A DNA stretch of 47,518 nucleotides, taken from the NCBI GenBank assembly GCA_025774805.1, contig JALGZR010000013.1, positions 1-47,518 of the forward strand. The letters run 5' to 3'. The DNA is from a bacterium (GTDB lineage Bacteria > ARS69). Under the pieces are notes generated by a model that saw only the letters and a program-made list of their open reading frames with translations, ran no database searches and had not been told where the DNA came from. The translations under genes and the position numbers were made by a program. Each line of letters starts with the position of its first letter. Position 1 is the stretch's first letter. Below are positions 4,838 to 31,451 of the stretch, in pieces.

Positions 4838-5017
4838 AAGCCTGCATTCCTCACCAGCCTCTGCTGCGGCAGCGGCAAAGCCGCGCCTGGCTTCGTCGCC
4901 GGGGCGCTTCCGCCCTGCGACGGGGCTACGGTCCCGCCTCGGGCGAAAACACCCCATCTCCTCGCCAGACACGACTATCCGCTGCCTCGCGACGAGCCGG
5001 GTGAGAAATGCGGGCTA
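4838..5017 (-). repeat. Full-length 180-bp dispersed inverted repeat (family 1), copy A
   Basis: Read on the minus strand it starts TAGCCCGCATTTCTCACC and ends GAATGCAGGCTT. It contains a GCTCGTCGCGAGG segment, the central CCGTAGCCCCGTCGCAGGG and a TTTGCCGCTGCCGC hairpin region. It is the reverse complement of the element at 10250-10429, with the same length and about 16 differences counted by eye. Its minus-strand TAG is the stop codon of the RlmD gene. It fills the whole gap between convergent genes. Confidence 0.9.
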
Positions 5018-6286
5018 CTTCACGAGGAGCGCCACCGTCTCCACGTGAGCGGTCGCCGGAAAGAGATCGATCGCCGTCAGACGCGTAAGCCGCCAGCCCG
5101 CCCCGGTGAGATCTTTCAGGTCGCGGGCCGCGGTGGCCGGGTCACAGGAGACCGAGAGGATCCGCCGGGGCGCGCGGGCGATCAGCTCGTGGCGGACTTC
5201 GGGGGCGAGGCCGGCCCGCGGCGGATCGACGATCACCGTCTCGACCGGCGCCCGCGGAAGCGTCCGCAGCGTGGTCTCGGTCCTCTCCTTTCGTACCTCC
5301 GCGCGAACGCCGTTGCGCCGGAGATTCCTCTTCAGATGCCGGATGGCGCGTCCGTCCGCCTCACCGGCGACCACGCGCTCGAACCCGTGCCCGAGGCAGG
5401 CGGCGAAAAGCCCCACCCCCGCGTAGAGATCGAAGAGGGCTCCCTCTCGATCGTCTTCCAGGAGGGACTCGACAGTGTCGACGAGCGTTTCGACTCCGGG
5501 TACCGAGACCTGGAAGAAGGACGTCGCATCGGCCCGGAGGGCGCGGCCGCGCACGCGGAACCGCAGATCCCGCTGCCCGACCAGCGGGATGCGGTCGGCG
5601 AGGAGCCCGACGATCTCCGGTGGACGCTCCATGGTCTTCGAGATCTTCCCGAGACGCCGCCGATCCCGCTCGCTCGGAGGAACGCCCGTCTCGAGAAGAG
5701 CGACCATTCTCTCCTCGGAGTCGATGCGCAACGTCACGTGTCGCCAGGGAGGAAGGAGGCGCGCCCAGGGGAGGAACACCTTTCCGAAGAGCGGCGACAT
5801 CAACAGGCAGTCGTCGACGGGAACGACCTCGTGGGACCCGCGCCGCAGGAGACCCGGACGGCCGGCCGCGTCGAACGAGAGCCGAATTCGATTCCGCGTG
5901 CCGAACTCGTCCCCGACCGCCTCGGGGCCGCGAAGCAGCTCGCTGCCGTCCCGGCCGCCGATCCGGCGCAGAGCGTCGAGGACGATCGTCCGTTTCATCT
6001 CGAGTTGAACGTCGCGCCCCGCGTGCTGGAAGTCGCAACCGCCGCACACGGCGGCGTGCGGGCAGGGGGGCGACCGACGGCCGGGATGCGCCCGGACGAT
6101 CTCCACGGCCTCCGCCTCGGCCCAGCGCTTCGAGTCCCGCGTGATGCGGGCCCGAACGGTCTCCCCGGGGAGGGCGCCCGTCACCAGGACCACCTTGCCC
6201 TCGATTCGGGCCAGGCAGCGTCCCCCCGGGACGGCGTGCTCGGTCTCGACCTCGATCGGGGACTCGATCGACAAGGGAACGTTCAT
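5015..6286 (-). CDS. rlmD: 23S rRNA (uracil-C5)-methyltransferase, RlmD/RumA type
   Basis: The product is 423 residues. A TRAM OB-fold at about residues 10-65 includes LARIEGKVVLVTGALPGE. Then comes a [4Fe-4S] motif, CPHAAVCGGCDFQH, with a probable fourth cysteine in PVDDC. The SAM-binding motif is FDLYAGVGLFA. The methyltransferase motifs are VIVDPPRAG and SVSCDPATAARDL, the latter holding the catalytic cysteine, and the family ending HVETVALL follows. The enzyme methylates C5 of a uridine, classically U1939 of 23S rRNA in RlmD. The iron-sulfur motif favours RlmD/RlmC over TrmA, but the exact target is inferred. The stop TAG is the first triplet of the 180-bp repeat. Confidence 0.88.
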   Translation of the reverse strand: MNVPLSIESPIEVETEHAVPGGRCLARIEGKVVLVTGALPGETVRARITRDSKRWAEAEAVEIVRAHPGRRSPPCPHAAVCGGCDFQHAGRDVQLEMKRTIVLDALRRIGGRDGSELLRGPEAVGDEFGTRNRIRLSFDAAGRPGLLRRGSHEVVPVDDCLLMSPLFGKVFLPWARLLPPWRHVTLRIDSEERMVALLETGVPPSERDRRRLGKISKTMERPPEIVGLLADRIPLVGQRDLRFRVRGRALRADATSFFQVSVPGVETLVDTVESLLEDDREGALFDLYAGVGLFAACLGHGFERVVAGEADGRAIRHLKRNLRRNGVRAEVRKERTETTLRTLPRAPVETVIVDPPRAGLAPEVRHELIARAPRRILSVSCDPATAARDLKDLTGAGWRLTRLTAIDLFPATAHVETVALLVK

Positions 6287-6379
6287 GATCTCAGGATCTC
6301 ACACGTACGCCGCACTCGGAAGGAGATCCTCGATCACTTTCGAGCCGCTTCGCGCCCGGCCTCCGAGCGTCCCCGCCGA

Positions 6380-6400
6380 GGGGGGCGGTTGACGCCCCCC
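6380..6400. other. Perfect GC hairpin between divergent rlmD and gdhA
   Basis: GGGGGGCG and CGCCCCCC form an eight-base perfect stem around the loop GTTGA. No T-tract follows on either strand, so it is not a standard intrinsic terminator. It may affect the divergent transcripts or be part of a decayed repeat. Confidence 0.45.
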
Positions 6401-6412
6401 GCGGTGGCCGCA

Positions 6413-6435
6413 TAGCCTGCGTTTCTCACCAGGCT
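6413..6435 (+). repeat. Single arm of dispersed inverted repeat (family 1)
   Basis: The arm starts TAGCCTGCGTTTCTCACC and closes with AGGCT, giving the AGCCTG/CAGGCT hairpin. The opposite arm is not present downstream. It lies in the gap between rlmD and the glutamate dehydrogenase gene. Confidence 0.75.
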
Positions 6436-6528
6436 CGGCGCCCGTTCCGCGTGCCGCTCTTCCGTTCCGCGTGTCGTTCCCCCATCCCGGCGGCCTTCCC
6501 CGGTCGCCGGCCGCCGATGAGGAGCCCG

Positions 6529-7979
6529 ATGGCCGCCCCGAGAAGCCGCCGCAAGTCCGCCGGCCATTCCCCGACCTCTCTCTACGAGAACGTCAATCTG
6601 CAGTTCGATCGCGCCGCGTCGGCGGTGCGGATCCACTCCGGCCTGCTCCGCCAGATCAAGGTCTGCAACAACGTGTACTCGGTGCGCTTCCCGATCCGTC
6701 GGGGAAAGGACTACGTGCTCATCGAGGGCTACCGGGCCGAGCACAGCCACCATCTGAAGCCCGTCAAGGGGGGCATCCGCTACAGCGAGGCGGTGTCGCA
6801 GGACGAGGTCATGGCGCTCGCCGCCCTGATGACCTACAAGTGAGCGCTCGTCGACGTGCCGTTCGGAGGCTCGAAGGGCGGAGTCAAGATCAACCCGCGC
6901 GACTACTCGACGTCCGAGCTCGAGCGGATCACGCGGCGCTTCGCGGCCGAGCTCATCAAGAAGGACTTCCTCGGGCCGCACGTCGACGTGCCCGCGCCGG
7001 ACATGGGCACGGGGCAGCGGGAGATGGCCTGGATCGTCGACAGGTACGACGCGTTCCATCCCGGCGAGCCCGACACGCAGGCCGCCGTCACCGGCAAGCC
7101 CTACCAGCAGGGCGGCATCCTGGGACGGGTCGAGGCGACAGGCCGCGGCGTGCAGTACGGCATTCGCGAGGCGATGGGCATCGCGGGGGATCTCAAGCCG
7201 CTGGGCCTCACCCCGGGCCTGGGGGGGGGAAAACCGTCGTGGTCCAGGGTTTCGGAAACGTCGGCTACCACGCCTCGAAGTTCCTGCAGGAGGAGGACTC
7301 CGCGAAGATCATCGCCGTCGGCGAGTGGGACGGCGCCATTCACGATCCGAAGGGCATCGACGTCGAGAAGCTCCAAGCGCACCGCCGCCGAACCGGATCG
7401 ATCCTCGGGTTCCCCGGCGCGAAGACGCTGCGGCGCTCGGTCGACTGCCTCTGTCTCGCGTGCGACATTCTCATTCCGGCCGCTCTGGAGAATCAGATCC
7501 ACCGGGACAACGCGCACCGGGTCCGGGCGAAGGTGATCGCCGAGGCGGCGAACGGGCCGATCACCGCGGCCGCCGACGGGATCCTCCGCCGGAAGGGGGT
7601 CCTCGTGATCCCCGACGTCTTCCTGAACGCGGGCGGAGTGACGGTCTCCTACTTCGAGTGGAGCAAGAACCTCACGCACATGCACTACGGCCGGATGTCC
7701 CGGCACCTCGAGAACCTCGAGGCGGAGCTCTTCATCAAGGAGACGGAGGCGCTGACCGGCAAGAAGTTCGGTCCCAGGGCGCGAAAGGTGCTGCTCCGCT
7801 CGCACGACGAGCTCGCGCTGGTGAACTCGGGGCTCGAGGACACGATGCGCTCGGCCTACCGGGAGATCCGCTCCGTGCTCAAGCGGCGGAAGAAGATCGA
7901 GGATCTCCGGATGGCGTCGTATACTCTGGCCATCGAGAGGATCTCGCAGGCCTACCTCGACCTCGGGATCTTTCCGTGA
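6529..7979 (+). pseudogene. gdhA: Glu/Leu/Phe/Val dehydrogenase (glutamate dehydrogenase), interrupted twice
   Basis: The pieces together cover a complete NAD(P)-dependent glutamate dehydrogenase, which interconverts glutamate and 2-oxoglutarate plus ammonia. They include [43 protein letters not shown], the Rossmann motif [14 protein letters not shown], and [13 protein letters not shown] near the C-terminal half. A TGA at 6841-6843 interrupts the conserved [12 protein letters not shown] motif exactly where Cys (TGC/TGT) is expected. A frameshift at the nine-G run 7221-7229 moves the frame before the Rossmann motif. I chose the ATG at 6529, with GAGGAG four bases upstream; 6517 is possible. 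All other motifs are intact, so the lesions are either very recent or sequence errors. Confidence 0.85.
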
Positions 7980-8020
7980 GGGTGCGCTTCGGGGATTGGC
8001 GAGGGGCCCTTCCGGAGCCA

Positions 8021-8043
8021 ATGACGGTCAGCGTGAGCGTCAT
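8021..8043. promoter_or_regulatory. Inverted repeat upstream of acs
   Basis: ATGACG and CGTCAT are perfect six-base half-sites separated by 11 bases, within the 180-bp gap before the acetyl-CoA synthetase gene. The spacing suits a dimeric regulator, but no promoter elements are clear around it. Confidence 0.25.
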
Positions 8044-8161
8044 CGGCTCGGTCGGCGGGCTGGCAAGCGTGATCACGGCGGTTTCGAAGCGAACGTGCGG
8101 CTGTGACCGCCGAAACGGTACACTTCGCGGCCAACTACTGGACCGCCGACTGGAGGATGCC

Positions 8162-10114
8162 GTGCCGGAAGAGATCATTCCCGTCAAGTCGCGGATTCGC
8201 GACCGCGCCCACATCGGGAGCATGGAGGAGTACGAGCGCCTCTACCGCCTGTCCCTGGACAATCCGGAGTGGTTCTGGGGCGAAGAGGCGAAGCATCTCA
8301 CCTGGTATCACCCGTGGCACAAGGTCTTCGACGCGGACTACGACGAGATCGATTTCGCGTGGTTCTCGGGCGGTCGCATCAACGCCTGCTTCAACTGCGT
8401 CGATCGGCATCTCGAGACGCACGCGGACCGCACCGCCCTCATCTGGGCCGCCGACGAACCCGGCGTGTACAAGTACATCAGCTACCGAGAGCTGAAACAC
8501 CAGGTCTGCCGACTGGCCAACGTCCTGCTCGCCCACGGAATCAAGAACGGCGATCGGGTTTGTATCTACATGCCCATGATTCCGGAGACGGTGTACGCCA
8601 TGTTGGCGTGCGCGCGCATCGGGGCGGTGCACTCCGTGGTCTTCGGCGGCTTCTCCAGCGAGGCCCTGCGGGATCGCATCGTCGATGCCCGCTGCAGGAT
8701 GGTGATCACCGCCAACGAGGGCGTGCGCGGCGGCAAGCACATTCCCCTCAAGGCCATCACGGACCGCGCCATCGAGGGCATGTCCACGGTGGAGACGGTT
8801 CTCGTGGCGCGCCGCACGGAAGTCCAGGTCCCCATGCGGAGCGGCCGTGATCTCTGGCTCGACGAGGAGTGCCACCGGCAACGCTCCACCTGCACCGTCG
8901 AATGGATGGGCGCCGAGGATCCACTGTTCATCCTGTACACCTCGGGGAGCACGGGCAAGCCGAAGGGGTTGCTGCACACCACGGGGGGATACCTGGTGTA
9001 CGCGTCGACGACGCATCGGCACGTGTTCGACTATCACGAGGGGGACGTCTATTGCTGTGCGGCTGACGTGGGCTGGATCACTGGCCACTCCTACATCGTG
9101 TACGGTCCGCTGGCGAACGGCGCCACGACGGTGATGTTCGAGTCCGTGCCCACCTATCCCGATGCCGGGCGTTACTGGCGCATGGTGGATGATCTGGGCA
9201 TCAACATCTTGTACACCGCACCCACCGCGCTGCGCGCCATCGCCCAGGCGGGGGACGAGTTCGTGAAGCGCCACGAGCGCTCGAGCCTCCGCATTCTCGG
9301 AACCGTGGGCGAGCCCATCAACCCGGAGATCTGGCGTTGGTATCACGACGTGGTGGGGGGGAGTCGGTGCGCCGTCGTCGACACCTGGTGGCAGACCGAG
9401 ACTGGAGGCATCCTCATCGCGCCACTTCCCGGCGTGACGCCGATGAAGCCCGGCTCGGCGACGCTGCCGTTCTTCGGTGTCAAGCCCGTGGTGGTGGATC
9501 CCGCCGAGGGTACCGTGCTCGAGGGAAACGGGGTCTCCGGTGCCCTGTGCCTGGCCACGCCGTGGCCGGGCCAGGCGCGCACCGTCTGGGGCGACCATCA
9601 ACGCTTCCGTGAGACCTACTTCACGCAGTTTCCGGGCTACTACTTCACGGGCGACGGCTGCCGGCGCGATGAGGACGGCTACTACTGGATCACCGGTCGC
9701 ATCGACGACGTCCTCAACGTCTCGGGACACCGCCTGGGCACGGCCGAGGTGGAGAGCGCCCTGGTGGCCCACGAGGCGGTGGCCGAGGCGGCGGTGGTGG
9801 GCTATTCGCACCCCGTGAAGGGCCAGGGCATCTACTGCTACGTGGTCCTCACGTCCGCATATGCCGGCCAGGACTCGGGACAGCTGCAGGGGGCGCTGAA
9901 GGAGCAGGTGCGGCACGCCATCGGTTCCTTCGCCACACCCGATGTCGTCCACATCGCCAGCGGGCTACCGAAGACGCGCAGCGGCAAGATTATGCGCCGC
10001 ATCCTGCGCCAGATCGCCGCCAGCGAATACACGGGGCTCGGTGACGTGTCGACCCTGGCCGACCCGGACGTCGTGGACCGTCTGGTCGAGGAGCACAAGA
10101 GGAGCTTGAGCTGA
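8162..10114 (+). CDS. acs: Acetyl-CoA synthetase (AMP-forming)
   Basis: The product is about 650 residues, the normal length for Acs. It makes acetyl-CoA from acetate, ATP and CoA via acetyl-AMP in the cytosol. I chose the GTG at 8162 because GGAGG lies five bases upstream. Motifs in order: the ATP-binding loop [43 protein letters not shown] with [18 protein letters not shown], and [11 protein letters not shown], whose lysine is the usual regulatory acetylation site. The N-terminal part (WHPWHKVFD-like [11 protein letters not shown]) is typical of Acs and propionyl-CoA synthetases. The Trp of WWQTE favours acetate. A gene-tail remnant directly follows, and both may be parts of a block cut by the repeat at 10250. 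Confidence 0.93.
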
Positions 10115-10131
10115 CAAATCGCGACGTTGCG

Positions 10132-10248
10132 TCACCGGCGTCGCGCCGGTTCCAGGCGTAGGGTGACCAGCCGGTCGTCCGCGTCGATGCGCACCTGTTC
10201 CGAGGCCAGGTCCTGCTCGTTCGATGCCGTCACGAACACGCGGCCTTC
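10132..10248 (-). pseudogene. C-terminal gene remnant cut off at a repeat
   Basis: The minus strand reads GRVFVTASNEQDLASEQV, then RIDADDRLVTLRLEPARRR and a TGA. Its acidic and hydrophobic alternation looks like a real protein C-terminus. Upstream the frame meets a TAG exactly at the edge of the 180-bp repeat (10250), so the rest of the gene is missing. I do not recognise the family. It shows that sequence has been lost or replaced at the repeat boundary. Confidence 0.45.
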
Positions 10249-10249
10249 C

Positions 10250-10429
10250 TAGCCCGCAATTCTCACCGGGCTCGTCGCGAGGCTGCGGACAGTCGTGGCT
10301 GGCGAGGAGATGGAGGGCTTTCGCCCGAGGCGGGGCCGTAGCCCCGTCGCAGGGCGGAAGCGCCCCAACGACGAAGCCAGGCGCGGCTTTGCCGGTGCCG
10401 CAGCAGAGGCCGGTGAGTTATGCAGGCTA
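10250..10429 (+). repeat. Full-length 180-bp dispersed inverted repeat (family 1), copy B
   Basis: It begins TAGCCCGCAATTCTCACC and ends GTTATGCAGGCTA. It matches the reverse complement of 4838-5017 over its whole length without gaps. The left arm has the hairpin AGCCCG/CGGGCT, a compensated variant of the AGCCTG/CAGGCT arms elsewhere. The core contains CCGTAGCCCCGTCGCAGGG and several short palindromes. It lies 37 bases before the aldo/keto reductase gene. Confidence 0.9.
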
Positions 10430-10466: not shown

Positions 10467-11432
10467 ATGGGCGAGACGACGATGACCTATCGCCGGGTCG
10501 GAGCCTCCGGTCTCGTGACGAGCGAGATCGGTCTGGGGAGCTGGTTGACTTACGGCGGCCCGGTGGACGAGAAGACGGCCACGTCGTGCATCCGGCGGGC
10601 CCGCGAGGCGGGCGTGACCCTGTTCGACACGGCGGACGTGTACAGCCGCGGAGAGGCGGAGCGGGTCCTCGGGCGGGTGTTGGGCGGAGAGCGTCGGTCG
10701 GAACTCGTGATCACGACGAAGGCGTACTTCGCGATGTCGGAGAATCCGAACGACCGGGGTCTCTCGCGCAAGCACCTCTTCGAGTCGATCCACGGCAGCC
10801 TCGAGCGTCTCCGCACCGACTACGTCGACATCTTCCAGTGCCACCGCTTCGATCCGTCGACCCCGATCGGGGAGACCGTCCGCGCGATGGACGACATAGT
10901 GCGGGCGGGAAATGCGCTCTACTGGGGGGTCTCGTGCTGGACTCGGGACCAGATCGAGGAGGCCCTCCGCGTGGCCGACGCGCTGAACGCCGTCCGGCCC
11001 ATCTCCAATCAGCCCCCGTACAACATGTTCGACCGGGAGATCGAGGACGAAGTCCTTCCCTTCTGCGTCGAGCAGGGGATCGGGCAGCTCGCCTTCAGCC
11101 CGTTGGCGGAGGGAATCCTGACCGGCAAGTACGCCGACGGTCGGATCCCGCCCGACTCCCGAGCCGCCGACGAGACCGACGGGCAGTTCCTGCGCCCCCG
11201 GATCAACGAGGAGAACCTCGCCCGCGTCGAGCGTCTCCGAAAGCTCGCGGACGAGGCGGGCCTCTCCCTGCCCCGAATGGCACTCGCTTGGGCGCTCCGG
11301 CAGCCCGGCGTCTCCAGCGTCATCGTCGGAGCGACGCGCCCCGATCAGGTCCGCGAGAACGTGCGGGCGGCCGGGGTGACGCTGGACGACTCCCTGCTGC
11401 GGGAGATCGAGATGGTGCTGTCGGGATCCTAG
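10467..11432 (+). CDS. Aldo/keto reductase (potassium-channel beta-subunit-like group)
   Basis: The product is 321 residues and forms an NADPH-binding TIM barrel. The catalytic tetrad is visible: Asp and Tyr in FDTADVYSRGEAE, Lys in ITTKAYF and His in IFQCHRFDP. The C-terminal coenzyme-binding motif is VIVGATRPDQVRENV. Members reduce aldehydes and ketones; the natural substrate cannot be told from sequence. The ATG at 10467 follows GAGGGAAAG. The gene stands alone between two repeats, and its TAG stop (11430-11432) is the first triplet of the downstream repeat. Confidence 0.88.
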   Translation: MGETTMTYRRVGASGLVTSEIGLGSWLTYGGPVDEKTATSCIRRAREAGVTLFDTADVYSRGEAERVLGRVLGGERRSELVITTKAYFAMSENPNDRGLSRKHLFESIHGSLERLRTDYVDIFQCHRFDPSTPIGETVRAMDDIVRAGNALYWGVSCWTRDQIEEALRVADALNAVRPISNQPPYNMFDREIEDEVLPFCVEQGIGQLAFSPLAEGILTGKYADGRIPPDSRAADETDGQFLRPRINEENLARVERLRKLADEAGLSLPRMALAWALRQPGVSSVIVGATRPDQVRENVRAAGVTLDDSLLREIEMVLSGS

Positions 11433-11504
11433 CCCGCATCTCTCACCTGCCTCCGCTGCGGCAGCGGCGAAGCCGCGCGACGGGCCCGGAGAGACATGCG
11501 GGCT
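11430..11504 (+). repeat. Short form of dispersed inverted repeat (family 1), 75 bp
   Basis: The outer arms AGCCCGCATCTCTC and GAGACATGCGGGCT pair at 13 of 14 positions. Inside is a second hairpin around CCGCTGCGGCAGCGG and GCGAAGCCGC. It resembles the 2205-2277 copy closely and starts at the TAG stop of the upstream gene. It could stop transcription or protect the RNA 3' end, but there is no T-tract. Confidence 0.85.
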
Positions 11505-11668
11505 GGCCGGCACGACTTCTGCATCCTACCGGCACCGCGAACCACGACGCGGGCGATCGCCCCTCCTCCCCCGGGCAGGCCCCGTCGGAGTCGTCCCGTT
11601 GACGCCAACCCGGCCCCGAGGAGGCGTCAATCGGAGAGACGCCCCCTCTCCCCGCAGCGAGTCGTTTC

Positions 11669-22193: not shown

Positions 22194-23885
22194 TCACATC
22201 CCGGGCCCGAGGGCGTCGAGGGCCTCCTCGTCGATACGGACCTGCAGTTCCTCGCGACGCGCCCGGACCCATTCGAGAACGAGACCGATGTCCCGCCGCG
22301 AGCTGACCATGCGGCGAACCTGCTCCCGCAGGTTCTCGTCGGTCAGATCGGCGGGAGGGATCCGTTCGAGGCACTCCATGATGATCCAGGTGTCGGAGAG
22401 TCGGTGGGGTCCGGTGCGCGTCCCGGGCTCTTGCTCGAAGATCGCCGCTTCCATCTCCGCGGGACCCAAGCTCCCGGCCGTGACGATGCTGATGTGATAG
22501 GACCCCTCGAACGTCGGATCTCCGGTCAAGATCTCGTCCAGTCGGGCGATGCCTCCCCCCGCCTCCTCGATCCGATCGCGCTCGCGAAGGGCCGCCTCCC
22601 GGGTCGGAAGGTCGAAGCGCAGCACGCGCGCGGACATCCGCCGCTGAAAGTAGTCGGGCTGGGATTCCCGGATGACGGTGATCAGGGAGTCGATCTGCGC
22701 ATCATCCGCCGGCTTCGGACTCTCGATTCGCCGGAGAGCGAGTTGGATCAGACGGTCTTCGTGAAAGCGGGCATAGGAGCGCTGAAACCACCAATCCTCC
22801 TCGAGCCCCCGTCGGCGCGCGGTTTCGAGCCGCAGACGATGGGTCGCTTCCCCTTCGGCGACTCTCCGGATCTGGAGATCCAGGGGTCCCATGCGGGGCC
22901 GTTTGCCGGGCCCCATGCCTCGGAGCTTGTCCCGGTAGTCCCCCGCGGTCCACGGAGGCGCCCCCTCCCAGTCCGCGACGACCCGGGACTCCTCGTCCGC
23001 GGAGATTCGGGGGATCCCCCACGCCGGATCCTGCTCGCTGACACCGGGGGAGAAGATCGCTTCGCGCGTGCGTCGATCGAGCCACTTGATGACGTCCGGG
23101 TGAACGCGGAAACCCGCGGCCTCAAGGAGGCGCCGCCCGACCTCCCGATCCGACTCGATCTGGCGACGAAAGCGCAACCCCTGTCCGATGAGGGCTTCGG
23201 AATCGGACAGAGGCGGGACGTTTTGAGGTCTCCGCTCCGTGACGCGAACCAGGTAGTGGAGGCCATCCTTCGAGATCGGAGAGGAGATCTCTCCGATCTC
23301 GAGGTAGGCCGCCGCGTCGACCAGGGGATCGGGGAACGGAGCCCACGACATCCAACGTCCCGGAACGATCCTCCCGCCGATTCCCGATCGCGCGACGGTT
23401 TCGAAGGAATCTCCCGCCTCGATTCGCCGGCGGGCGGCGCGGGCTTCCTCCGCACCACGGAACGAGACGATTTCGACGCGATGAGACCATCCCATGCGGC
23501 GGTGCGCTTCGCGCACCTCTTCCGGGGAGACGCTCCGGAAGCCCTCCTGAATCACCCGGAGCCTCTGGACGAGCAGGTCTTCCCGGCCCCGGATCAGCCG
23601 GTCCCGGGTCTGTTCCTCGCCGGCCGCGAGAAGCCGCTCTCCCTCGGCAAGAAGGAGGCGACGCCGGATCAGCTCGTCGACGAACGCGGACCTCTGCTCC
23701 CGGGTGGCCAGGGAACCTCGCGCCACGGGATCGAGGCCGGCATAGGCGCGCCGCAGGTCCGAGAGCGACAGATTGTCCCCGGTCATCACGACGACGGCCG
23801 GATCGCCGAGGTCCACGCAGGCGTGTAGAAGGAGAGGGATGGCCAGAAGGAGGGCGCGGAGGAGTCCCGATCGTCCGGCCTGCAT
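22194..23885 (-). CDS. Parvulin-like peptidyl-prolyl isomerase lipoprotein (PpiC/SurA type)
   Basis: The product is 563 residues. The N-terminus RALLLAIPLLLHACVDLG has a lipobox-like end with Cys23, so it is probably lipid-anchored after export. Residues from about 60 to 130 form a SurA-like helical region (FVDELIRRRLLLAEGERLLA). A parvulin-like segment follows: VEIVSFRGAEEARAARRRIE, GDSFETVARS and GEISSPISKDGLHYLVRVTE. A second, weaker isomerase-like unit lies near the C-terminus (MSARVLRFDLPTREAALRER and TWIIMECLERIPP). Such proteins fold envelope proteins. Its start codon lies inside a family-1 repeat arm. Confidence 0.8.
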   Translation of the reverse strand: MQAGRSGLLRALLLAIPLLLHACVDLGDPAVVVMTGDNLSLSDLRRAYAGLDPVARGSLATREQRSAFVDELIRRRLLLAEGERLLAAGEEQTRDRLIRGREDLLVQRLRVIQEGFRSVSPEEVREAHRRMGWSHRVEIVSFRGAEEARAARRRIEAGDSFETVARSGIGGRIVPGRWMSWAPFPDPLVDAAAYLEIGEISSPISKDGLHYLVRVTERRPQNVPPLSDSEALIGQGLRFRRQIESDREVGRRLLEAAGFRVHPDVIKWLDRRTREAIFSPGVSEQDPAWGIPRISADEESRVVADWEGAPPWTAGDYRDKLRGMGPGKRPRMGPLDLQIRRVAEGEATHRLRLETARRRGLEEDWWFQRSYARFHEDRLIQLALRRIESPKPADDAQIDSLITVIRESQPDYFQRRMSARVLRFDLPTREAALRERDRIEEAGGGIARLDEILTGDPTFEGSYHISIVTAGSLGPAEMEAAIFEQEPGTRTGPHRLSDTWIIMECLERIPPADLTDENLREQVRRMVSSRRDIGLVLEWVRARREELQVRIDEEALDALGPGM

Positions 23886-23942
23886 ATCTCACCATCCTCT
23901 GCCGCGGAAGCGGCTCGCCGCGCCGGGTGAGGGACGCAGGCC
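23877..23942. repeat. Short form of dispersed inverted repeat (family 1), 66 bp
   Basis: GGCCTGCATATCTCACC on the left pairs with GGGTGAGGGACGCAGGCC on the right. The inner hairpin is GCCGCGGAAGCGGC. The left end contains the start codon of the parvulin-like gene on the minus strand, and the element separates that gene from the FAD subunit gene upstream. Confidence 0.8.
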
Positions 23943-23983
23943 AGGGGAACGGCGGCGGGGGACGATCATGGCCTGACTCCGGC

Positions 23984-29609: not shown

Positions 29610-31250
29610 ATGGAATACCGTCTCGTCGGGGAGCACCACGGGACCCGCTTCGATCGCGACGTGCCCTCCGGCACCACCACCGTGGGACGCAGCGGTCAGA
29701 ACAACCTCGTGATTCCGAGCCAGACCGTGTCGAGGTGCCATGCGGAGATCCGGTTCGACGGGGACGAGCTCTGGGTCCGGGATCTCGGCAGCCTCAACGG
29801 GACCCGGGTCAACGGGGCGGAGATCGCGGCGCCGACCCCGATCCGGTCCGGAGACATCATCGAATTCGGAAGCGTACAGCTCCGTCTCGAGAAAAAGGGC
29901 GGTACCCACTCCACCTCTCCGGTCTGGACGAGCGAGGAAGACGTGTCGGGCAGCATCCAGATTTCTCGCGAGGACATCGAGACGGACACCGGGGTCCGCT
30001 CCGGGCACGAGTTGGCGATCCTGCGAATGCTCACGGAGGCCGGACAGCTCCTCGTTCTCCCCGAGTCACCCGAGGAGACGTTCGACCGGATCCTGCAGCT
30101 CGTCGAGAACACCATTCCCGCCGGCCGCATCATCATCCTGTTGAACGAGGACGGCGGGGAGCCGGTCCAGCGGGCCGCCCGGGTCCGGGGGGATCGCGCG
30201 ATCTCCCCGCTGCTCCTGAGTCGAACCATGATGCGAATGGTCCTCGAGAAGAAGAAGTCGATTCTGACCGGCGACGCCCAGTCCGACGAGCGGTTCCGGA
30301 ATCAGCACTCCATCGTCGCCCAGGATCTCCGCTCGGCCATGGCCGTGCCCCTGATCCATCACGACGAAGTCCTCGGCATGTTGTACGTCGACACGTCGGA
30401 CCCGCTGGCCTCGTACAGCGAAGAGGATCTGGAGGTGCTCACGCTCCTGGGGCAGATGCTCGGGGCCAAGATCGCGAACGCCCACCTGCTGAAGGCGGCT
30501 CGGGAGCGGGATCGCTTCGAGGAAGAGCTGCGGACGGCGACGAGAATTCAGAGACGCCTTCTGCCGCAGGAGCTGCCGAAGGTCGCCGGGTACGAGATCC
30601 AGTGCTGCCAGGAGACCTGCGAGGCGGTGGGCGGGGATCTCTACGACGCGGGGGTTCTTCCCGACGGGAGGATCCAGATCGTTCTGGGAGACGTCAGCGG
30701 AAAGGGAATCGGCGCGGCTCTCCTGATGTCCGACGTGCTCGCGACGATCCGGGCCCTTCGCACCATCGGACTGCCCCTCGACGACCTGGTCTCTCGATTG
30801 AACCAGCACATCCTGCAGTCCACCGAGCCCGAGCGCTATCTCACCCTGTTTGTCGCCGAGCTCGACCCGATCTCCCACCGCCTCCAATGGGTCAACGCGG
30901 GGCACCCGGACGCCCATCTGATCCACGCGGACGGTCGCATCGATTCGCTGGAGCCGACCGGGGCCTGGGTGGGCCTCCTCGATCTCCCCGACGTCGAGTA
31001 CGGAACGGAGTTCCTGGAGTTCCCTCCGGGGGCGGTCCTCGTCTCCACCTCCGACGGAATCAACGAGGCGGGGCGCGGTGAGAACGAGTTCTTCGGGGAC
31101 AAGCGTTTACTGGCCACGCTCCGCGAGTGCGCGGGCCTGAGTGCGAAGGAGGTCAGGGGCCGGATCCTCGAGGATGTCGATTCCTTCACGGGCGACGATC
31201 CGCCCGGCGACGACGTGACGTTGGTCGTTCTCCGACGGGAGCCCGCCTAG
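29610..31250 (+). CDS. FHA-GAF-PP2C (SpoIIE/RsbU-type) serine phosphatase
   Basis: The product is about 546 residues and soluble. FHA domain, residues about 5-95: TTVGRSGQNNLVIPSQTVSR and LGSLNGTRVNG bind phosphothreonine peptides. GAF domain, about 135-295, ends with AMAVPLIHHDEVLGMLYVDT. A short helical linker (RDRFEEELRTATRIQRRLLP) is the usual SpoIIE linker. PP2C domain to the end: AVGGDLYDAG, VLGDVSGKGIGAALLMS, FVAELDPISH, STSDGINEA and DDVTLVVLR, with the metal-binding aspartates present. RsbU-type enzymes dephosphorylate anti-sigma antagonists. The convergent membrane kinase is a natural partner, since FHA domains read Ser/Thr kinase marks. The stop TAG touches the downstream inverted-repeat element. 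Confidence 0.92.
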   Translation: MEYRLVGEHHGTRFDRDVPSGTTTVGRSGQNNLVIPSQTVSRCHAEIRFDGDELWVRDLGSLNGTRVNGAEIAAPTPIRSGDIIEFGSVQLRLEKKGGTHSTSPVWTSEEDVSGSIQISREDIETDTGVRSGHELAILRMLTEAGQLLVLPESPEETFDRILQLVENTIPAGRIIILLNEDGGEPVQRAARVRGDRAISPLLLSRTMMRMVLEKKKSILTGDAQSDERFRNQHSIVAQDLRSAMAVPLIHHDEVLGMLYVDTSDPLASYSEEDLEVLTLLGQMLGAKIANAHLLKAARERDRFEEELRTATRIQRRLLPQELPKVAGYEIQCCQETCEAVGGDLYDAGVLPDGRIQIVLGDVSGKGIGAALLMSDVLATIRALRTIGLPLDDLVSRLNQHILQSTEPERYLTLFVAELDPISHRLQWVNAGHPDAHLIHADGRIDSLEPTGAWVGLLDLPDVEYGTEFLEFPPGAVLVSTSDGINEAGRGENEFFGDKRLLATLRECAGLSAKEVRGRILEDVDSFTGDDPPGDDVTLVVLRREPA

Positions 31251-31428
31251 CCCGGACTATTCATGAAGGGCCGTCGCGAGATCGTGGAGACGCCTACCGG
31301 ACGGGCACCCGCAGGGGCTCGAACCCGAGTCGTATCTGAACGATACGTCGCAGGGTGCGAGACGCGAGGACGCCGGTCCGGTGGTGCGGATCCGCGATCG
31401 CAGCAGGTCGTTCATGAATAGTCCGGGC
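31250..31428. repeat. 179-bp inverted-repeat element (family 2) with nested hairpins
   Basis: Perfect 18-bp terminal inverted repeats, GCCCGGACTATTCATGAA, bound the element. Inside, ACCGGAC (31296) pairs with GTCCGGT (31376). GCACCCGC (31305-31312) pairs with GC-A-GGGTGC (31350-31358). The hairpin CGTATC-TGAAC-GATACG is at 31331-31347, with a GGG/CCC hairpin at 31315-31326. The left end overlaps the last base of the phosphatase TAG stop. No open frame of note is inside. Confidence 0.88.
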
Positions 31429-31429
31429 C

Positions 31430-31451
31430 AGCCCGCTTTTCTCACGAGGCT
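31430..31451 (+). repeat. Single arm of dispersed inverted repeat (family 1)
   Basis: AGCCCGCTTTTCTCACG followed by AGGCT, then CGTCGCTCGTCG, one base after the end of the family-2 element. The two families are directly abutted here. Confidence 0.7.

Follow-up and report, generated by a model that had tools for sequence, protein, structure and literature searches.

A dispersed family of short, gene-less repeats with IS1380-type ends and a conserved hairpin core

Two inverted elements and their family in the genome

The DNA analysed here, referred to as the window, is the complete 47,518-nucleotide contig JALGZR010000013.1 (C78) of a bacterial genome assembly (GCA_025774805.1, here G000; 5.1 Mb, 284 contigs, 96% complete, 5% contaminated). 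It contains two 180-bp elements in opposite orientation, at 4838-5017 on the minus strand and at 10250-10429 on the plus strand, which a first-pass annotation based on sequence alone had described as a nearly identical pair. Their alignment was ungapped and showed 16 differences (91.1% identity); the best of 20,000 random inverted pairs of 180 bp from the window reached 45.6% identity. Sequences flanking the two copies were unrelated to each other, and nothing observed pointed to the inversion between them that the first-pass annotation had considered possible. The minus-strand copy lies 4 nt past the end (4833) of a neighbouring gene, and the plus-strand copy is situated between an acetyl-CoA synthetase-like gene (ending at 10114) and an aldo/keto reductase-like gene (starting at 10467).

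Both copies carry the inverted ends reported for them, similar to TAGCCYGCATTTCTCACC...GGTGAGAAATGCRGGCTA and hereafter called type-1 ends, which in the copy at 4838-5017 read TAGCCCGCATTTCTCACC and AAGCCTGCATTCCTCACC. In the other copy, the IS1380-type terminal inverted repeat at 10250-10267 (plus) and its partner at 10412-10429 (minus) enclose a structured core at 10270-10409 (plus), in which helices alternate with conserved loops and which starts with CTCGTCGCGAGG and finishes with CCGCAGCAGAG. The earlier statement that the elements contain no long open frame was upheld in the biological sense; a mechanical list of open reading frames does include frames that cross both copies, but these are spurious frames of the kind present in any DNA of 68% GC.

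Searches of G000, together with direct reading of approximately 0.44 Mb of its sequence, showed that the pair belongs to a large family. The 18-nt end TAGCCYGCATTTCTCACC gave 353 matches with at most 2 mismatches, compared with a single match for the reversed control pattern. Among the places that were scored (315 candidates), 40 were full-length, with 89-94% identity, and at least 53 distinct long copies were collected. Copy lengths comprised a class of 178-182 bp and interior-deletion classes of 53-96 bp. Since the genome holds this many different long copies and ends, an assembly duplicate was excluded as the explanation of the two copies in the window. The elements are short and multicopy, lack a transposase gene and have terminal inverted repeats that match those of insertion sequences (ISs) of the IS1380 family, which identifies them as the non-autonomous miniature inverted-repeat transposable elements (MITEs) that had been proposed. 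On another contig (L069 1975-2008, corresponding to G000:C8:21975-22008), a single CTAG is common to two back-to-back element ends (GCAGGCTAGCCTGC), the arrangement that insertion of one element at the terminal CTAG of another would produce.

A conserved, strand-specific fold

Of 20 non-redundant elements, nearly all folded as a single hairpin along their full length; in a G152 element (L109), this applied to the outer part only. Conservation of the fold was assessed with a MAFFT alignment of 21 elements that was not fitted to structure. The elements are related and the tests applied here treat them as independent, so that p-values are optimistic. At 61 pairs, 86.6% of the alignment cells were paired, compared with 33-46% when the pairs were slid, and 41 of the 61 had changed on both sides. 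The covariation score was 0.402, as compared with 0.167 for shuffled and at most 0.108 for slid pairs. In the helices interior to the end repeat, nearly every pair varied while pairing was kept, and the loops between these helices, chiefly TTC-GTC-GC-GA-GG facing CC-GCA-GY-A-GAA, were near-invariant. A hairpin within each end (arms AGCCYG and CRGGCT) was also considered and was rejected, as its arms did not covary (p=0.58).

For the strand comparison, elements were oriented according to the motif GTCGCGAG, independently of folding energy. The strand with this motif was the more stable one in 21 of 21 elements, with a mean interior difference of 17 kcal/mol; among 26 further elements, most of which were oriented by a covariance model, the same was true of 25 with RNA parameters and of all 26 with DNA parameters. 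When pairs were chosen by Watson-Crick frequency alone, differences between lineages comprised 28 G-U and 9 A-C pairs (p=0.0026). An earlier version of this comparison, on pairs picked by RNAalifold, was dropped, as the opposite strand gave the same result and the picking was therefore biased. The stem formed by the end repeats showed no strand bias (G-U 8, A-C 10).

These results indicated covariation within a defined fold, beyond that of the controls, as is required of a structured RNA. The first-pass annotation had offered a structured RNA family as one option; a strand-specific, covarying single-strand fold is indeed present, and the strand may act as RNA or as single-stranded DNA (ssDNA). 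In the interiors of 53 copies within G000, G-U and A-C pairs were about equally frequent (78 and 73), and copies inside this genome drift neutrally. Drift of single copies, together with maintenance of the fold of one strand in spreading lineages, suggests that selection has acted on propagation rather than on a function of the individual copies for the host.

Distribution across phyla

An exact pattern in which the end was combined with the opening motif of the core (N{4,5}TCGTCGCGAG) was found in at least 104 stretches. Record titles among the matches listed included Acidobacteria (among them Vicinamibacteria, Thermoanaerobaculia, Holophagae and Acanthopleuribacter), Nitrospira, Pirellulales and other Planctomycetota, Gemmatimonadetes, Gamma- and 'Delta'proteobacteria, Kiritimatiellae and Ca. 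Eisenbacteria. Full-length relatives occurred in at least seven phyla and were mostly exactly 182 bp long. A covariance model built from eight full elements (R1) gave a match at E<=1e-6 in 32 of 386 sampled genomes; the two copies in the window scored 88.7 bits (4838-5017) and 81.2 bits (10250-10429). Comparison of a cross-phylum element (L191) with plasmids and phages by blastn gave no match.

Ends shared with IS1380-family insertion sequences

Terminal inverted repeats of the elements measured 15-18 bp. A nearly identical end, YTAG|CCCGCATTTCTCACA, was found on intact IS1380-family ISs of named plasmids. The IS on Pseudomonas putida pKF715A (L282 534-2194) has TAGCCCGCATTTCTCACA at both sides, and that of Bradyrhizobium CB82 (L281 535-2197) has the same type of end on both sides with one extra mismatch on one of them. 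Ends of the IS1380-family ISs of R. leguminosarum and S. fredii are diverged, that of IS1380A is TCGA|CGCGGAAATCTCACA, and other IS1380 elements end in CCCGGATATTTCATAAA (G033 and others), CCCGGATTTCGCA (G198) or CCCGGATTCGTCA (G123). The variety among the ends of the MITE family resembles that among IS1380 ends.

Matches to the type-1 end were present in 60 of 386 genomes, among them the unrelated G152 (293 copies), G275 (213), G121 (83) and G260 (42). When genomes rich in these ends were searched for the IS1380-type transposase (PF13701), the end was found beside transposases. In G275, an intact transposase frame of 476 amino acids is followed by the exact end, its other side being cut by an apparent IS3-type insertion, and in G359 decayed copies of the IS1380 transposase adjoin the end. 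Across the sample, carriage of the hairpin was associated with PF13701, which was detected in 10 of 32 carrier genomes and in 42 of 354 others (p=0.005).

Several further observations concern these ends. In G359, a decayed IS1380 transposase frame adjoining this end is directly bordered by a 185-bp element (L150 1123-2053, contig C43). At least 10 contigs of G344 stop 58 nt into an element in which GCATAGGGATATGG comes after this end (for example L104 4609-4667 and L105 4265-4323); the assembly does not include the body of this element, which is multicopy, no transposase body was recovered for these contig-end copies, and the bin is without a PF13701 gene. An exact-end search of IMG/VR returned two contigs only, both viral contigs of 3300049216, with ends at 106-123 in L117 and at 107-124 and 4670-4687 in L118. 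These ends lie approximately 100 nt from contig ends and are joined to another interior; the contig breaks near them reflect multicopy elements that break assembly.

Target sites and stop codons

The base that precedes TAG at the element ends was C in 90% of cases in G000; in other genomes it was C in 80% and T in 17%. The flanking 4-mers of the two ends agreed in 44 cases in other genomes, against 29.5 expected, and agreeing non-palindromic pairs included CTAA/CTAA and TTAG/TTAG. TTAG also stands at both sides of the R. leguminosarum IS. This agreement is read as duplication of a 4-bp YTAR target, which in G000 would have occurred likewise. A 2-bp TA duplication, as in IS630, was set aside; the data do not separate it from a 4-bp YTAR duplication, and the latter explains the C and G beside TA.

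Insertion at a stop codon leaves a stop in place, since TAG is part of CTAG. The TAG of the element at 4838-5017 (5015-5017) is the stop codon of the minus-strand gene at 5015-6286, and the TAG of a short element at 11430-11505 (11430-11432) is that of the plus-strand gene at 10467-11432. The TAG at 31248-31250, in a third full-length element, closes a frame that is open from 29196. Rough gene calls for 26 long copies on five contigs placed a stop codon no more than a few bases away from approximately 10 of them.

Origin and spread of the elements

We propose, with a probability of about 0.7, that the elements are MITEs mobilised by IS1380-type transposases and that their conserved, strand-specific hairpin serves propagation. 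An IS1380-type DDE transposase, since lost, decayed or unassembled in G000, would have moved the elements in trans. Insertion would occur into YTAR sites, mostly CTAG, and would leave a 4-bp duplication that resembles part of the inverted repeat; the TAG within CTAG would preserve stop codons, in keeping with the many copies at stops. Between the ends lies the conserved core of approximately 140 nt, and on the strand that reads GTCGCGAGG...GCAGYAGA the whole element is predicted to form one 182-nt hairpin with fixed internal loops. Lineages that keep the fold would be those that spread, and the folded single strand, whether RNA or ssDNA, most likely acts in propagation rather than for the benefit of the host, for instance by recruiting, stabilising or regulating the transposition machinery.

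Several results weigh against this proposal. No intact IS1380 gene was found in the 96% complete G000, whose sole PF13701 trace is a distant C-terminal remnant on contig C17, and the mobiliser is therefore a putative one. PF13701 genes were likewise not found in the heavily loaded genomes G121, G039, G280 and G344. The presence of a cognate transposase gene alongside it is not a requirement for a MITE, and metagenome-assembled genomes (MAGs) often miss intact ISs. The core was absent from the IS1380 ends examined, which therefore do not account for its origin. In G000, flanking 4-mers agreed in 27 cases against 22.9 expected (p=0.07), a comparison of low power since CTAG dominates, and its 53 flank pairs included no direct repeat other than CTAG/CTAG. 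An empty site was sought for the element next to the decayed IS1380 frame in G359, but the joined flanks gave no homology beyond the element. Finally, the sign test counts related elements as independent.

A REPIN-like nature, in which ssDNA hairpins (paired repetitive extragenic palindromic, or REP, sequences) are copied by a Y1 transposase of the RAYT (REP-associated tyrosine transposase) or IS200 type, had been suggested in the first-pass annotation. High copy number, inverted ends and a hairpin that is strand-specific also with DNA energy parameters would fit it, and Y1 genes were present in 10 of 12 sampled genomes that carry these ends, although this co-occurrence says little because Y1 genes are common. 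The search of G000 for a Y1/REP-type transposase found none, so that the REPIN reading fails in this genome; moreover, the end is not a REP with a hairpin of its own and matches the DDE-type ISs of the IS1380 family. We regard this explanation as very unlikely.

A covarying fold with a strand preference, many copies directly behind genes and the precedents of ERIC and NEMIS (reviewed in PMC2229807) would also fit a structured RNA or mRNA element, such as a terminator, stabiliser or RNase III site, that benefits the host and is only incidentally mobile. The neutral ratio of G-U to A-C pairs among copies in G000 (78 to 73) argues against this, as do the lack of a preferred orientation with respect to tandem genes (6 in the same and 11 in the opposite direction) and the loss of the interior in many copies, and such a host role appears unlikely. 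It is also quite improbable that the elements are ordinary IS1380 deletion derivatives in which conversion has kept the arms paired and the fold has no function. Palindromic MITEs are common and the outer stem lacks strand bias, which favours this explanation; it does not account for a core seen in no IS1380 end examined, for the conservation of core length and unpaired loops across phyla, or for an interior strand bias that arm conversion would not produce.

Cores with other ends

Model R1 also detected full-length elements without type-1 ends, at 31248-31430 in the window and on other contigs, with TAGCCCGGAYTATTCATGA-like ends. With a second covariance model without the end repeats (R2), which matched both 180-bp copies, the core was detected in 33 genomes, each from a different genus, out of 290 sampled. 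IS1380-type ends around it included CCYGCATTTCTCACC and CCCGGATTATTCATGA, and most outer stems looked IS1380-like and ended in CTAG (G102, G143, G151, G198 and G208). Outer stems of G260 (GAGCCAATTGCAAAATTAT), G047 (TAGGGCACCTCTGGAAATTA) and G002, from the same family as G000 (CTAGTTCGGGTGGCGGGAG), were not recognised as IS1380-like, nor were the ends of 119-nt core forms, for example GGCTGTTCAAAAAGG in G134. One 119-nt form with other ends stands directly before a tRNA gene (L303 1501-1701, G135:C9). Apart from the G299 element itself, its outer stem was found in that genome only in a single short element, and not at an IS.

Either ends and transposases diverged together, or the core moved between transposons. 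In the latter direction, the core of 120-180 nt may be a structured module in its own right, active as RNA or ssDNA, to which the ends of different transposons have been added on repeated occasions; we offer this tentatively, as a possibility somewhat short of even odds. If true, the element would be a structured parasite of transposons and not a degraded transposon.

Relation to known repeat families

Neither Rfam nor the literature searched supplied a name for the family, which the first-pass annotation had not recognised as a named one either. No Rfam family scored above its gathering score, and at E<=1 there was no match across elements. The literature searched, which covered few subscription papers, yielded REPINs, CGTC and GTAG REPs and single-genus MITEs only, none with this anatomy, and CCCGCATTTCTCAC was printed in no paper searched. 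Titles and abstracts of papers that mention both 'IS1380' and 'MITE' did not concern such elements. It is possible that the family has been sighted earlier without a name: multicopy sequences in Geobacter metallireducens are mentioned by Aklujkar et al. (2009; PMC2700814), who discuss binding of IHF/HU.

In kind, the elements are IS1380-type MITEs, and their unusual part is the conserved, strand-specific hairpin core across phyla. They share the terminal inverted repeat and YTAR-type flanks with IS1380-family ISs, which differ in their length of approximately 1.66 kb, their transposase gene and, in those examined, the lack of the core. NEMIS/Correia, RUP and ERIC elements are likewise short, gene-less and multicopy with inverted ends and a hairpin, but are to our knowledge restricted to a single genus or to a few groups that are related, whereas a single fold and a single length, with conserved loops, recur across phyla in the present family. 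REPINs with their RAYT are also high-copy, hairpin-forming mobile units; the present elements differ by DDE-type ends, the lack of REP end hairpins and the absence of Y1 from G000. CGTC-tagged REPs are short palindromic repeats of several phyla without a dedicated transposase, with stems of 8-9 bp and loops of 4-5 nt (PMC3733652), whereas the present element has 182 nt and several internal loops, the CGTC core motif being the only likeness.

Bacterial MITEs are usually regarded as local debris of insertion sequences. Here, fold, length and loops were kept over at least seven phyla while ends changed, which suggests that the fold is part of spreading. The elements offer a concrete system for studying a possible use of structured RNA or ssDNA by DDE transposons, and the covariance model finds many unannotated repeats per genome, a number of them providing genes with their stop codons.

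Further features of the window

Beyond the two copies described in the first-pass annotation, the window holds further members of the family. The third full-length element, at 31248-31430 on the plus strand (90 bits with R1), combines the common core with different ends (TAGCCCGGACTATTCATGAA). Three short members, all on the minus strand, comprise a 76-bp element with two type-1 ends and a deleted interior at 11430-11505, a 76-bp element with diverged ends at 2203-2278 and a 68-bp element at 23876-23943. A lone type-1 end without a partner, at 6413-6430 (plus), is an element remnant. A glutamate-dehydrogenase-like gene at 6451-7979 is split by an in-frame TGA (6841-6843) after ...LMTYK and shows a frame change near a run of G at approximately 7225-7235; this could be a sequencing error in the MAG or a pseudogene.

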